Source: a virus. Taken from it: a stretch of 54,428 nt of DNA. Shown here piece after piece: positions 8,002 through 37,020 of this stretch. How positions within the stretch are numbered: the first letter of the stretch is position 1; every line of letters begins with the position of its first letter. The translations under genes and the position numbers were made by a program. The notes beneath the pieces are model-generated. The model had not been told where the DNA came from and made no database searches. It saw only the letters and a list, made by a program, of their open reading frames with translations. The DNA is taken from IMG/VR virus record IMGVR_UViG_3300036944_000521, positions 1 to 54,428 of that record. The stretch is one strand, 5' to 3'.

Positions 8002-8156
8002 TGATTTAGTACCTCTGCTTCTAGTCTACTGACTTGTTGCTGTAGCTTTTTAATTTCTAGAAAGGCAAGAAGCAGTAGATCATACACTTCTTGCCTAGTT
8101 TCTGTTTCTTGCTCAACTTGAACAAGCGTATCTGCGATTTGATTTACAATATCCAT
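7998..8156 (-). CDS. small coiled-coil protein
   Basis: 52 residues, almost entirely helical with Gln/Glu/Leu heptads (VYDLLLLAFLEIKKLQQQV). ATGA overlap downstream, one-base overlap upstream. Confidence 0.6.
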   Translation of the reverse strand: MDIVNQIADTLVQVEQETETRQEVYDLLLLAFLEIKKLQQQVSRLEAEVLNQ

Positions 8157-13651: not shown

Positions 13652-14179
13652 CTATTGAGCAGGTTCTGGTATCTGCTTAATCATACCACCCATAATAGAT
13701 GCTATGTGGATTTGTGAAAATCCTTCTTCTAGTGCAGGCTCGCTATAGGTATCAAGCATAGAATCAAGTACGTACCCAGGAATAATCTTACCTGGACGAG
13801 CACCAAGCCTAGCATATAGTAGGCTCCATTCTCTATCATTACGAGGCGGAGAAATAACAAAACATTGCTTAATGTAGCTATCAGGGAAGTGAGACAAGAT
13901 CCAACGACGCTTATCAGATTTCATATTAGTCTGATCCCAAATAACGGTGTATCCGTTAGCAATAGCTCGCTTTAGCTCATCGTTCATATGCTCAGTAGCT
14001 TCTCGAATATATAGTTCAAAGACTTCTGTGTAGCTTTTGCGATCACGAGCAGCGCAACGTTCGATATAATCATCAGTACTATACGTAAAGATTTTAGATT
14101 TGTTATTCAGCTTAATGTTGTTAATCAGGTATGACTTACCAGAACCAGGTAGCCCTACAAAAACAATTACTGCGCTCAT
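13652..14179 (-). CDS. polynucleotide-kinase-like P-loop kinase
   Basis: 175 residues. VGLPGSGKS (7-15) is Walker A, then STDDYIERCA, VIWDQTNMKSDKRR (the DxTN motif of PNK kinase domains) and a C-terminal lid. The domain matches the 5'-kinase half of T4 Pnk and relatives; the 3'-phosphatase half is absent. It could act in RNA repair, or phosphorylate a small metabolite. Stop is TAG, with TAA two codons further. Confidence 0.7.
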   Translation of the reverse strand: MSAVIVFVGLPGSGKSYLINNIKLNNKSKIFTYSTDDYIERCAARDRKSYTEVFELYIREATEHMNDELKRAIANGYTVIWDQTNMKSDKRRWILSHFPDSYIKQCFVISPPRNDREWSLLYARLGARPGKIIPGYVLDSMLDTYSEPALEEGFSQIHIASIMGGMIKQIPEPAQ

Positions 14180-15095: not shown

Positions 15096-15189
15096 GGTTA
15101 GCATTTGTTTGCCCACCATGGGCGTACTACGAGAAAATCGTGGTACAGGGATCGAACCTGTCATGTTTGATTGTTTGCTGAAACTAACC
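15096..15189 (-). ncRNA. Y-RNA-like element with tRNA-mimic body
   Basis: Closed by GGTTAG/CTAACC. The 5' side then reads TTTCAGCAAAC. The body has a perfect T-arm (ACAGG, loop TTCGATC, CCTGT). An acceptor-like stem ACCACGA/TCGTAGT is capped by a 5-nt loop, so it is closed rather than open-ended, and GCCC/GGGC forms a D-arm-like hairpin. No anticodon arm can be built. Closed acceptor, D and T arms, and ends leaving where the anticodon arm would be: this is the layout of bacterial YrlA Y RNAs. Lies downstream of the Ro60-like gene. Confidence 0.7.
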
Positions 15190-26109: not shown

Positions 26110-27097
26110 TAGTTTTTCCTTCTATAAAATAGTCATACATTCTTTTATATATCTTATCTGGTGCTTTCGCATTATGTATATTAATACACAAGTTTCTAGC
26201 ATACCAAGTTGTAAATCTAACGTATTTTTCATAATCAAAGTCAGGTTTATATGCTTGATCTATATTATCTGCATTGTTAACTGCTGGATGATAATCTGGT
26301 ATGCCAAATATAGATACAGGCTTCTTCATAAGCATAGCTTCCATACCGCAAGCAGAAGATGCTGTCCATAGCTGACTACAAGTGCTTATTAAGTCCACAA
26401 TATAACTATCTACGTCAAAGGTTATATATTTATTTTTTAAGGAATATAGCGTATCTGTGTATACCTCATCTGCTGTGGGGTGTAAACGTATAACTACATG
26501 TTTTTTATTATCTAGCGCCCATTGCGATACTTGTTTTAGTAAATCTAGTCCTAGCATTTTATCATAATAGTGTACAGTACCTAGCCCTTGATGTGTAAAC
26601 AATATATACTCATCTGGCAAGGCATTCTTAACATAAGCATGATTATACTTAGTCCCATACCCCTTAACATAGGCATTAGTTAAACTATTAAATAGCAGCT
26701 CGTCTGGAACAGTACTTTTATAGTTGTCTGTATACTCATAGCTATATATAAAATGACCATCAGGAGCTAACTTGGCTAACCAGATAAGTGGAGCTCCTAT
26801 TCGGAACTCTAGCCCTTTACCTACGTAGTTTTTACTTTGAGTCTCGTTTGGTAATATCAACCCATCAAAACTACTCTTATTTGGTAGCTTTAGATAGCTA
26901 CTATATACTAGCTGTACTATTTTGTACTGTGTAGAGGAGTTTTTAGTCTTAATTGTGACTTTACTTCTATCAGTAAGATAAGCGTCTTTACTTTCCATCC
27001 ACAATTTTAAGGATGTATTAGCAATCTTATCTATGTCTTTACATGTATCAGTAACTATTACCTGCTTATCGCCATAACCTAGTTGAAAATTAATCAT
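26093..27097 (-). CDS. capsule-type (KpsC/LpsZ-like) glycosyltransferase
   Basis: 334 residues. YILFTHQGLGT, VVIRLHPTADE and WTASSACGMEAMLMKKPVSIFG follow the GT-B pattern of capsule polysaccharide transferases. Single domain, no membrane segment. Its place beside a tail adhesin and sulfotransferase suggests glycan modification of the particle or host. Confidence 0.68.
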   Translation of the reverse strand: MINFQLGYGDKQVIVTDTCKDIDKIANTSLKLWMESKDAYLTDRSKVTIKTKNSSTQYKIVQLVYSSYLKLPNKSSFDGLILPNETQSKNYVGKGLEFRIGAPLIWLAKLAPDGHFIYSYEYTDNYKSTVPDELLFNSLTNAYVKGYGTKYNHAYVKNALPDEYILFTHQGLGTVHYYDKMLGLDLLKQVSQWALDNKKHVVIRLHPTADEVYTDTLYSLKNKYITFDVDSYIVDLISTCSQLWTASSACGMEAMLMKKPVSIFGIPDYHPAVNNADNIDQAYKPDFDYEKYVRFTTWYARNLCINIHNAKAPDKIYKRMYDYFIEGKTIADLY

Positions 27098-29124: not shown

Positions 29125-29595
29125 TTATTCTGTTGTAGCCATCTCAGTAGACGGCGCTAATTTAACAATGAACGCTCTGATCTGCCAGTGCATTTTGGCA
29201 TGAAAGTCTAAACGATCTTCTAAGAAGTTTACTATGCCATAGCGTTTTTCGGCTGAAGCTAGTTCGTGCGCTGCATTAAGCTGTGCAATAAAAGTTTCAT
29301 TATCATTATATAGATTACGGAACATAGCATCTGCTGATATAATACCAGTCTCATCTTGGATCTTAGTTAGTTCGCTAAAACGAGATAGTGACCCTGGTAC
29401 GTAAGCATCAAGAGTACGTGTACGCTCTGCATAACCATCTACAGAACCCCATACAGCCTCGTAGAAGTCACCAAAAAATCCATGATATTCTGAGAAGTTT
29501 GGGCCTGTTACGTTCCAATGGTAGTTATGAGCTTTTAGATATAGTGAAAAAGCGGTAGCTTGTACAACTTTCATCTGGTCAATTAGTTCTGACAT
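29125..29595 (-). CDS. Dps-family ferritin-like protein
   Basis: 156 residues, normal Dps length. HNYHWNVTGPNFSEYHGFF and WGSVDGYAERTRTL contain the inter-subunit ferroxidase His/Asp/Glu of Dps. It would form a 12-mer storing iron and shielding DNA from peroxide. Monocistronic with its own promoter. Confidence 0.88.
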   Translation of the reverse strand: MSELIDQMKVVQATAFSLYLKAHNYHWNVTGPNFSEYHGFFGDFYEAVWGSVDGYAERTRTLDAYVPGSLSRFSELTKIQDETGIISADAMFRNLYNDNETFIAQLNAAHELASAEKRYGIVNFLEDRLDFHAKMHWQIRAFIVKLAPSTEMATTE

Positions 29596-30729: not shown

Positions 30730-30804
30730 TGGTACCCAGTGACGGGATCGAACCGCCGACAATCTCGGTGTAAACGAGGAGCTCTACCGCTGAGCTAACT
30801 GGGC
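30730..30804 (-). tRNA. tRNA-Val(TAC)
   Basis: GCCCAGT/ACTGGGT, CCTCG-TTTACAC-CGAGA, GGCGG-TTCGATC-CCGTC, CCA encoded. Confidence 0.92.
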
Positions 30805-30818
30805 ATTGTTATTTAACT

Positions 30819-30922
30819 GGTTCACTTTTGTGCTAAGTCGGCTGTGCTACCATTACACTACTAGGAGGAATCGAACCTCGCTCGCTGATTGGGATTGCAT
30901 AAAATTGATGCTGAACGGAACC
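30819..30922 (-). ncRNA. Y-RNA-like element with permuted Gly-tRNA-like body
   Basis: Closed by GGTTC/GAACC with GTTCAGCATC on the 5' side and GCACAAAAG on the 3' side, the same pair as the 15.2 kb element. Inside, a T-arm (GAGG-TTCGATT-CCTC) precedes a Gly-type D-arm (GTGT-AATGGTA-GCAC), again in permuted order. The acceptor strands are almost absent (only CTAG between the arms), so it cannot yield a charged tRNA. Confidence 0.65.
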
Positions 30923-30932
30923 AAAATTTATT

Positions 30933-31006
30933 TGGCGAAGGTACTCGGAGTCGAACCGAGGCTTGAGGTTTTGGAGACCGCCGTGCTACCGTAACACTTT
31001 ACCAAC
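30933..31006 (-). tRNA. tRNA-Trp(CCA)
   Basis: GCGGT-CTCCAAA-ACCTC anticodon arm, CTCGG-TTCGACT-CCGAG, CCA encoded; acceptor GTTGGTA/TACCTTC has two mismatches. Confidence 0.85.
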
Positions 31007-31011
31007 GTAAC

Positions 31012-31374
31012 TTATCCCGCGGAGCGGGTGAGGAAGTTTACTCTAACTTTTGAAGGCTTGAAGTACTTCTCAATAACGTCTTGTGCAATACCAATATCTA
31101 CTGGCTTACACGAAAAAATATCAATATATGCATCACCATTAGAATCTACTAAGTGACCGCTAATATTGCTTGTTTCAATCATTTGACAGAAACTGATACC
31201 AGCTTTATCAGGAGCATGAGTAGCAAAATGCTCAATCATTGGCTCTCCGAAAGCTACCATATCAATAGCAGGAACTAGTTCTTTAATAAAAGCGTGAACA
31301 TTAACTTTGCACATTACAAGTTCTTTGTCACAAGCGCCGCAATCAAACATTGCGTGGTAGCCCCAATATGCCAT
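31012..31374 (-). CDS. S-adenosylmethionine decarboxylase-like (SpeD)
   Basis: 120 residues, the size of bacterial/archaeal SpeD. YHAMFDCG at the start, ETSNISGHLVD around the expected serine cleavage/pyruvoyl site, and AYIDIFSCKP match the family. SpeD self-cleaves and makes decarboxylated SAM for spermidine. The core reads NISGH instead of the usual SISAH-like sequence, so self-processing deserves testing. Confidence 0.7.
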   Translation of the reverse strand: MAYWGYHAMFDCGACDKELVMCKVNVHAFIKELVPAIDMVAFGEPMIEHFATHAPDKAGISFCQMIETSNISGHLVDSNGDAYIDIFSCKPVDIGIAQDVIEKYFKPSKVRVNFLTRSAG

Positions 31375-35150: not shown

Positions 35151-35226
35151 TGGTGCCCCAAGTAGGAATCGAACCCACGACCTGATGATTACAAATCAAC
35201 TGCTCTTCCATCTGAGCTATTAGGGC
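35151..35226 (-). tRNA. tRNA-Thr(TGT)
   Basis: GCCCTAA/TTGGGGC, GTTGA-TTTGTAA-TCATC, GTGGG-TTCGATT-CCTAC, CCA encoded. Confidence 0.9.
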
Positions 35227-35228
35227 AT

Positions 35229-35302
35229 TGGAGCGGATAGCGGGAATCGAACCCGCGTCATTAGCTTGGAAGGCTAAGGTCTTACCATTACACAATATCC
35301 GC
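35229..35302 (-). tRNA. tRNA-Gly(TCC)
   Basis: GCGGATA/TATCCGC, TTAGC-CTTCCAA-GCTAA, GCGGG-TTCGATT-CCCGC, CCA encoded. Confidence 0.92.
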
Positions 35303-35435: not shown

Positions 35436-35482
35436 TAACTCCTCCAACTATTGAACTGGATGGTCGTTGTCCTCGGTAATGG
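35432..35482 (-). promoter_or_regulatory. stem masking a start codon
   Basis: CCATTA/TAATGG pairs across 39 nt and includes the ATG of the 35334 ORF. The rest of the 35.48-35.58 kb leader (TTTAGAT repeats) holds no gene. Confidence 0.4.
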
Positions 35483-35585
35483 CTATCTAAACTTACATGA
35501 TCAAGATTTTTACATCTAAATTGGTTGCAGTATCCATCCACAGATTTGCTACGCTGGCTCTGTTAAGCCTCGATAGAGCTAGAGT

Positions 35586-36874: not shown

Positions 36875-36950
36875 TGGTGGTCCTAACAGGAATTGAACCT
36901 GCGTTAGTCTGCTTTAGAGGCAGCTGCCTTACCATTAGGCTATAGAACCG
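36875..36950 (-). tRNA. amber suppressor tRNA (CTA)
   Basis: GGTTCTA/TAGGACC acceptor, D-arm GCCT/AGGC, anticodon arm CTGC-CTCTAAA-GCAG (4 bp plus G-A), T-arm GCAGG-TTCAATT-CCTGT, CCA encoded. The 7-nt loop places T33 before CTA, which reads UAG. The alternative frame (TCT) would leave no stem and C33, and a proper Arg(TCT) tRNA is at 40.1 kb. The charged amino acid is unknown. Confidence 0.78.
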
Positions 36951-36960
36951 TTATTTAGCA

Positions 36961-37020
36961 GGCTCATCTTGTGCTTTTTCCCAAAAAAAGTGCCTTACGG
37001 CAATGATGCTGAACTGAGCC
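36961..37020 (-). ncRNA. minimal Y-RNA-like element
   Basis: 60 nt. Closed by GGCTCA/TGAGCC, GTTCAGCATC on the 5' side and GCACAAGA on the 3' side, the full motif pair. Instead of a tRNA body it has two hairpins, TGCC-GTAA-GGCA and a CTTTTT/AAAAAG stem. This shows the motif pair is a unit independent of the tRNA mimic. Confidence 0.6.

Follow-up and report, generated by a model that had tools for sequence, protein, structure and literature searches.

Chen et al. are said to have described, in 2014, Y RNAs of bacteria and mycobacteriophages that mimic transfer RNA (tRNA), a study cited in PMC12282133. In eukaryotic Y RNAs the site of Ro60 binding is an end stem with an internal loop (PMC4726728), in RYPER a Y RNA links Rsr to PNPase (PMC8394870; PMC4726728), and mimicry of tRNA has been described for YrlA (PMC8394870). 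In Listeria phage CKA15 a Ro60-related (Rsr-like) protein was detected in purified virions, with the caution from the authors that some detections of this kind might be spurious. Upstream of the Rsr-like gene there are abundant noncoding transcripts, for which the authors raise a Y RNA as a mere possibility (PMC12282133). Here we describe a viral DNA stretch of 54,428 nucleotides (nt; IMG/VR record IMGVR_UViG_3300036944_000521, positions 1 to 54,428), referred to throughout as the window, which encodes a Ro60-like protein and which carries, on the minus strand at 30922-30819, a small element with a tRNA-like T arm and D arm between paired ends. This element is likely to be the gene of a phage Y RNA, the predicted small noncoding partner of the Ro60-like ring protein that the phage itself encodes. 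It is probably an acceptor-less, YrlA-like Y RNA, for which we infer both binding and an effector function.

An acceptor-less tRNA-like element within a clamp

The element sits within a tRNA array, the window having about 30 tRNA genes on its minus strand as called by ARAGORN. Its parts follow one another as terminal stem, closing stem, T arm and D arm, with the ends paired (Table 1). The RNA would begin GGUUC CGUU CAGCA UCAAUUUUAUGCAAUCCCAA UCAGC GAGC GAGG UUCGAUU CCUC CUAGUA and continue, after CUAGUA, with GUGU AAUGGUA GCAC A GCCGA CUUAGCAC AAAAGU GAACC. Two 9-nt motifs, TTCAGCATC at 30915-30907 and GCACAAAAG at 30833-30825, are exact on the minus strand and enclose first the T arm and then the D arm, which is precisely the permuted order given in a first-pass annotation of this DNA. 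The exact pair of 9-mers is not diagnostic, since none of the 58 stretches that carry it in viral contigs has T and D arms. That annotation also held that an element at 15.2 kilobases (kb) has the same motif pair; the two elements do share GG-N7-CAGCA plus AAAAG..CC, but the true match begins at 15319 with GGATCATTGCAGCA and is not ATCAGCATC at 15301-15293.

The acceptor, described earlier as nearly gone, is indeed missing, but it is wholly absent and not merely reduced, because the linker from T arm to D arm consists only of CTAGTA; the idea of a remnant misleads, the form being conserved in 18 distinct elements. A glycine type and a different tRNA origin had been assigned as well, an assignment that is not supported, as there is no anticodon in the element and the best matches of the D half are Leu, Gln or Lys tRNAs. 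Because acceptor stem, CCA and anticodon are all lacking, the element cannot act as a translating tRNA. We therefore give practically no credence to a permuted tRNA gene, whose ends would be joined and whose middle would be processed to yield a working tRNA: the T arm does precede the D arm, and relatives in the family contain a permuted series of anticodon arm, T arm, acceptor stem and D arm, but the ends of the element form a conserved paired clamp, and the acceptor hairpin, where relatives have one, is closed by a short loop.

The ends were scored with a pairing-aware clamp model (5' TTTTA-GG-N7-CAGCA, 3' AAA-N5-CC-(T/A)GTT, ends paired) derived from 80 viral loci with relatives of the window's Ro60-like gene, with 127 training elements and zero from the window. 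The element has the top score in the window, 45.2 bits, against 24.5 for the best of 20 shuffles. The model finds eight elements there, all on the minus strand, the weakest of which (16856-16773, 24.7 bits) borders on the shuffle limit of 24.5. The 1166 kb scanned near Ro60 genes hold 273 elements of at least 30 bits, training elements included, whereas 579 kb of other phage DNA hold none. When selection was blind to the stem, base pairs 3-6 were all formed in 101 of 117 non-redundant elements (permuted mean 9.9, maximum 19, in 1000 permutations), a set with 35 different helices that contains the element at 30922-30819.

A search of viral contigs with the T-D core alone as pattern gave 23 distinct contexts, 19 of them within the clamp by automatic model and one more (L402) by eye. 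Eighteen distinct elements inside the clamp, counting that of the window, are without an acceptor hairpin. The core pattern was taken from the window, so that part of the likeness in the T-D core is built in, which does not apply to clamp and closing stem. In the subfamily of 16 relatives from which the window was excluded, 95.3% of cells are paired, versus 26-41% with the partner slid, and 40 cells are compensatory, in the terminal stem, the closing stem and one T-stem pair, with the D arm invariant. Covariation in related phages, the check proposed in the first-pass annotation, is thus found in end stem, closing stem and T stem, and the end stem and motifs are kept. A covariance model of these 16 relatives without the window (R1) recovers the exact coordinates of the element (86.1 bits, E 3.8e-18, positions 1-105 of 105) and detects four of the window's seven other elements as weak matches. 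Where a tRNA is near, the acceptor-less elements stand 7-11 nt downstream of it.

Because 18 distinct elements share the missing acceptor, with covariation, the acceptor-less form is a conserved type and not decay. Decay of a tRNA, or the joining by chance of tandem tRNA halves between accidental repeats, would account for the absent acceptor stem and for a minimum free energy no better than shuffled, and tandem tRNAs can imitate the T-then-D order, as in a sub-threshold YrlA match at 35174-35283; the shared clamp of these 18 elements and the compensatory changes in their end stem nevertheless make such an origin very improbable. The match at 35174-35283 is weak (27 bits), comes from a tandem tRNA-Gly/tRNA-Thr junction and is of a false-positive type; a tandem junction is a possible route of origin for T-then-D RNAs. 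An extra inner helix, UGCAA/UUAGCA, between closing stem and clamp is not claimed, since 106 of 2000 permutations were as good and it is therefore not clearly above permuted pairing. A T-D core outside the usual clamp was seen at L442:4811-4843 (-) (contig G034), beside a classical TROVE Ro60 gene (contig positions 7442-8164), and may represent this RNA type with a different clamp.

The Ro60-like gene and its association with the RNAs

The presumed protein partner is encoded on the same strand (Table 1). A search of PDB sequences with it gave no significant match, only sub-threshold TROVE chains, so that structure comparison was needed for the Ro60 assignment. The AlphaFold2 model (predicted local distance difference test, pLDDT, 79) matches 2i91 in Foldseek at E 3.1e-07, and in VIA-align the Z values are 16.6 with the TROVE structure 9kop, 15.1 with 9l5y (Ro60 of Thermus phage phiLo), 14.5 with 1yvr (Xenopus Ro) and 11.1 with Deinococcus Rsr. 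Both the helical-repeat ring and the vWA/MIDAS fold are present in the model, and the DxSxS motif is invariant. In the phage collection searched, 682 records contain relatives of the protein.

Co-occurrence and clustering on the same strand support a link between the RNA family and the Ro60 gene. A motif search blind to the gene led to contigs with a Ro60-like gene in 11 of 12 large cases, versus 1 of 11 control contigs, and in four large relatives, each scanned over its whole length, almost every element falls within the tRNA/Ro60 region. The 147 elements counted across 34 loci are all on the Ro60 strand, 68 of them no more than 0.5 kb upstream of the gene. Of six tRNA-rich phages, elements were found only in Ochrobactrum phage OC, also the sole one with a DUF7788 Ro60 gene, about 50 kb away. 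The clamp model also finds two elements directly upstream of the Rsr-like gene of phage CKA15 (25551-25498 and 25393-25291); these are not tied to the transcripts, the published text lacking coordinates of the second and third regions (PMC12282133).

The same data bear on whether the clamp binds another phage RNA-handling protein (a ligase, kinase or nuclease), with Ro60 genes just sharing the tRNA-rich block. The elements do lie within tRNA arrays, the window has a polynucleotide-kinase-like gene at 13652-14179, and one contig (G038, 127 kb) holds three elements and no detected Ro60 gene. This explanation is unlikely, however, given that tRNA-rich phages without a DUF7788 gene have no elements in the regions scanned, and given the common strand and upstream clustering of the elements counted.

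Several observations count against the predicted identity of the element as a Y RNA. Its end stem (GGUUC/GAACC) has 5 base pairs (bp), which is short for the family; its thermodynamic folding is no more stable than that of shuffles (z 0.13), an uninformative result; and the Rfam YrlA model gives no match at 30.8 kb even at E 10. Besides the contig G038, the phages KVP40, nt-1, Aeh1, DLP_6 and ECML-1 depart from the association in the other direction, with the gene present and the scanned flanks of 5-8 kb free of elements, and the clamp motif is absent from the most abundant noncoding region of CKA15 (26,236-26,727). Lastly, the element lies 14 kb from the Ro60-like gene, and had rightly been annotated as far from it. 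From the co-occurrence of elements and Ro60 genes, phage OC with its distance of about 50 kb included, we consider this distance no strong objection, and some acceptor-less relatives are about 1-5 kb from a Ro60 gene (G012, G018, G032, G039). No Ro60 gene was detected on contigs G014 and G037, possibly because these contigs stop short of it; at the end of G033 there is a DUF2828 fragment. No element was found in the region scanned of Streptomyces phage Samisti12, which has a classical TROVE protein.

As a phage Y RNA, the product of the element would be co-transcribed with tRNAs and then trimmed, and its clamp would bind the outer face of the Ro60 ring, as other Y RNAs do. The exposed T/D module would then be the effector domain, which would recruit or block tRNA-handling proteins and would be recognised by proteins that bind or modify tRNA, or by a nuclease. 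It may gate the ring or tether it to a partner, in the manner of the Y RNA that serves PNPase in RYPER, a step to which, taken alone, we give about an even chance.

One clamp, different tRNA pieces

That the element belongs to a repeated RNA family, and is not a single decayed tRNA, was correctly anticipated in the first-pass annotation, although its count of three was too low: about eight are present in the window, relatives have hundreds, and the stems show compensatory changes. The consensus of the family ends is GG-N7-CAGCA ... AAA-N5-CC-(T/A)GTT, and at 26 bits or more the family comprises 238 distinct and 186 non-redundant elements from 68 loci. Cultured phages that carry such elements include Ochrobactrum phage OC and Synechococcus phage BUCT-ZZ01. 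Arms were called by simple patterns that undercount weak arms, and the architectures are tentative: T then D in 20, anticodon arm-T-D in 6, anticodon arm alone in 23, T alone in 27, D-anticodon-T in 6 (mostly an entire tRNA in normal order), and others in fewer, with no recognised tRNA arm in 85 of the 186. The T-D members that keep an acceptor hairpin pair in 18 of 18 cases (mean 5.8 of 6; permuted 3.5); they do not look like processed tRNAs, because a short loop closes the hairpin, as in YrlA.

The anticodon-arm mimics of the family are genuine. Such arms, with 5 bp and a 7-nt loop, are found in 45 of the 186 members, compared with a mean of 3.0 and a maximum of 8 in shuffles; 42 of the 45 follow the tRNA 36/37 rule, in which U36 or A36 goes with A37 and C36 or G36 with G37. 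Beyond the window, mimics were seen at L090:6422 and L156:4136, and some clamp elements enclose a whole tRNA in normal order, called as tRNA by Rfam or ARAGORN.

These mimics bear on what the RNAs might do once bound. They may be decoys, the Ro60 clamp stabilising and displaying tRNA pieces that divert anticodon nucleases of the host or defences directed at tRNA. Such a role would compete with the effector step only and not with identification as a Y RNA. Cleavage of tRNA is a widespread anti-phage mechanism (PMC12409363), YrlA has been suggested as a competitive inhibitor of a nuclease (PMC7790460), and the number of mimics and their adherence to the 36/37 rule fit well. Against a decoy function, 85 of the 186 members have no recognised tRNA arm, and the element at 30922-30819, having no anticodon arm, would act on enzymes that read the T/D elbow. 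We regard the decoy role as rather doubtful overall, plausible for members with anticodon arms and weaker here.

A broader interpretation, which we offer tentatively and as less likely than not, is that phages with a DUF2828-type Ro60 carry banks of Y RNAs in which one common clamp displays a different tRNA piece each time (an anticodon arm by itself or with a T arm, T and D arms with no acceptor, or a whole tRNA in permuted or normal order). The Ro60 ring would then be an interchangeable platform, such as an array of decoys or sensors against host defences that cleave tRNA. The element at 30922-30819 would be the conserved acceptor-less T-D type of the bank. The sequence signature for presumed Ro60 RNA partners with varied tRNA parts would make phage Ro60 function testable, as regards the RNAs that bind, the molecules recruited or blocked by the tRNA parts, and any action against tRNA-cleaving defences. 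Y RNAs may be hidden among the tRNA-like pieces of phage tRNA arrays that are now annotated as tRNAs or not at all.

Several other features of these tRNA regions were recorded. In the window, a tRNA with anticodon CUA (36875-36949, called Pyl) is a possible amber suppressor, with the family member at 36961-37020 just upstream, and an S-adenosylmethionine decarboxylase gene (31012-31374) and a ferritin-like gene (29125-29595) lie inside the tRNA array. Elsewhere, a transfer-messenger RNA (tmRNA) in a phage tRNA region (L156:19224-19587) matches both the alpha_tmRNA and the tmRNA_permuted models. In Cronobacter phage S13 (L140:7889-8009 and 8019-8131) and in Aeh1 (L145:10187-10308), tRNA genes of 113-122 nt with apparent inserts of about 40 nt lie near the Ro60-like gene (in Aeh1, 2.8 kb downstream). 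A GOLLD RNA (RF02032, 215.7 bits) with a tRNA inside stands in a tRNA cluster at L097:752-1215, in a phage that also has a Ro60-like gene.

Table 1. Coordinates of the element, its parts, the other family members and neighbouring genes in the window
Feature	Position	Strand	Evidence or remark
Acceptor-less Y-RNA-like element, whole	30819..30922	-	104 nt; clamp model 45.2 bits; covariance model R1 86.1 bits
Terminal (clamp) stem, 5' strand GGTTC	30918..30922	-	Pairs with GAACC 30823-30819; compensatory changes in relatives
5' clamp motif CAGCA, conserved	30909..30913	-	9 nt after first G of GG; offset 9 in 127/149 elements, first scan
Closing stem (anticodon-stem equivalent), 5' strand TCAGC	30884..30888	-	Subfamily pairing above all 2000 permutations; compensatory changes
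T arm GAGG-TTCGATT-CCTC	30865..30879	-	Sequence; one T-stem pair changed on both sides in relatives
Linker CTAGTA, replacing acceptor-like hairpin of other members	30859..30864	-	Sequence comparison
D arm GTGT-AATGGTA-GCAC	30844..30858	-	Sequence; invariant in relatives, but core belonged to search pattern
Closing stem, 3' strand GCCGA, one A-C mismatch	30838..30842	-	Same permutation test and compensatory changes
3' clamp motif AAAAGT, conserved, preceding 3' stem strand	30824..30829	-	3' motif of clamp model
Terminal (clamp) stem, 3' strand GAACC	30819..30823	-	Pairs with GGTTC; compensatory changes in relatives
Ro60-like protein gene (DUF2828/DUF7788, 472 amino acids), presumed partner	15340..16758	-	Pfam; phrog_850 RNA-binding protein; predicted fold
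Family member: T arm, acceptor-like hairpin, D-like arm	15096..15189	-	43.0 bits; relatives in L060, L156
Family member: T arm, acceptor hairpin, D arm	15204..15319	-	36.8 bits; sub-threshold Rfam YrlA 41.4 bits
Family member immediately upstream of Ro60-like gene: anticodon-arm-like hairpin (loop CUCAUAA) and T arm	16773..16856	-	24.7 bits; relative in L061
Family member: anticodon-arm-like hairpin TTCA-CTTGTAA-TGAA (4 bp, by eye)	18032..18102	-	32.0 bits
Family member, short	19240..19297	-	28.1 bits
Family member	35458..35539	-	32.0 bits; relatives at G001:95277, G002:14196
Family member, short: anticodon-arm-like hairpin CTTTT-TTTGGGA-AAAAG, no T or D arm	36961..37020	-	38.0 bits; relatives L113, L114
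tRNA-Val (TAC), just downstream of element	30730..30804	-	ARAGORN
tRNA-Trp (CCA), 11 nt upstream of element	30933..31006	-	ARAGORN; spacing

Comparison with known RNAs

In the literature searched, we found no description of an acceptor-less subfamily or of Y-like RNAs with anticodon arms. In permuted tRNA genes the 3' half of the tRNA stands before the 5' half. The element shares this order, and differs in having no acceptor, CCA or anticodon and in its conserved paired ends. Eukaryotic Y RNAs resemble it in their end stem with an internal loop, with no relation in sequence to the element shown, and we know of none with mimicry of the T and D arms of tRNA. The candidate Y RNAs of phage CKA15 accompany a related Ro60-like protein, as in the window, but their top region is without the motif of the window's element.

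YrlA (Rfam RF02553) has a short acceptor-like hairpin between T and D arms, which the element and its ortholog group lack, and a clamp consensus that differs from CAGCA and AAAAGT. The T and D loops of YrlA are modified by pseudouridine and dihydrouridine synthases. The element is moreover encoded in a tRNA array at a distance from the Ro60-like gene. The member at 15204-15319 scores 41.4 bits with the Rfam YrlA model, against a gathering threshold of 69, and YrlA at gathering score was found in none of eight relatives' loci. As two tested features fail, the score and the acceptor hairpin, we do not file the element as YrlA. Like YrlA, however, it has a terminal stem with an asymmetric internal loop, followed by a T arm that stands before the D arm, and just as YrlA is the partner of a Ro60-family protein, the genome that carries the element encodes a protein of that family.
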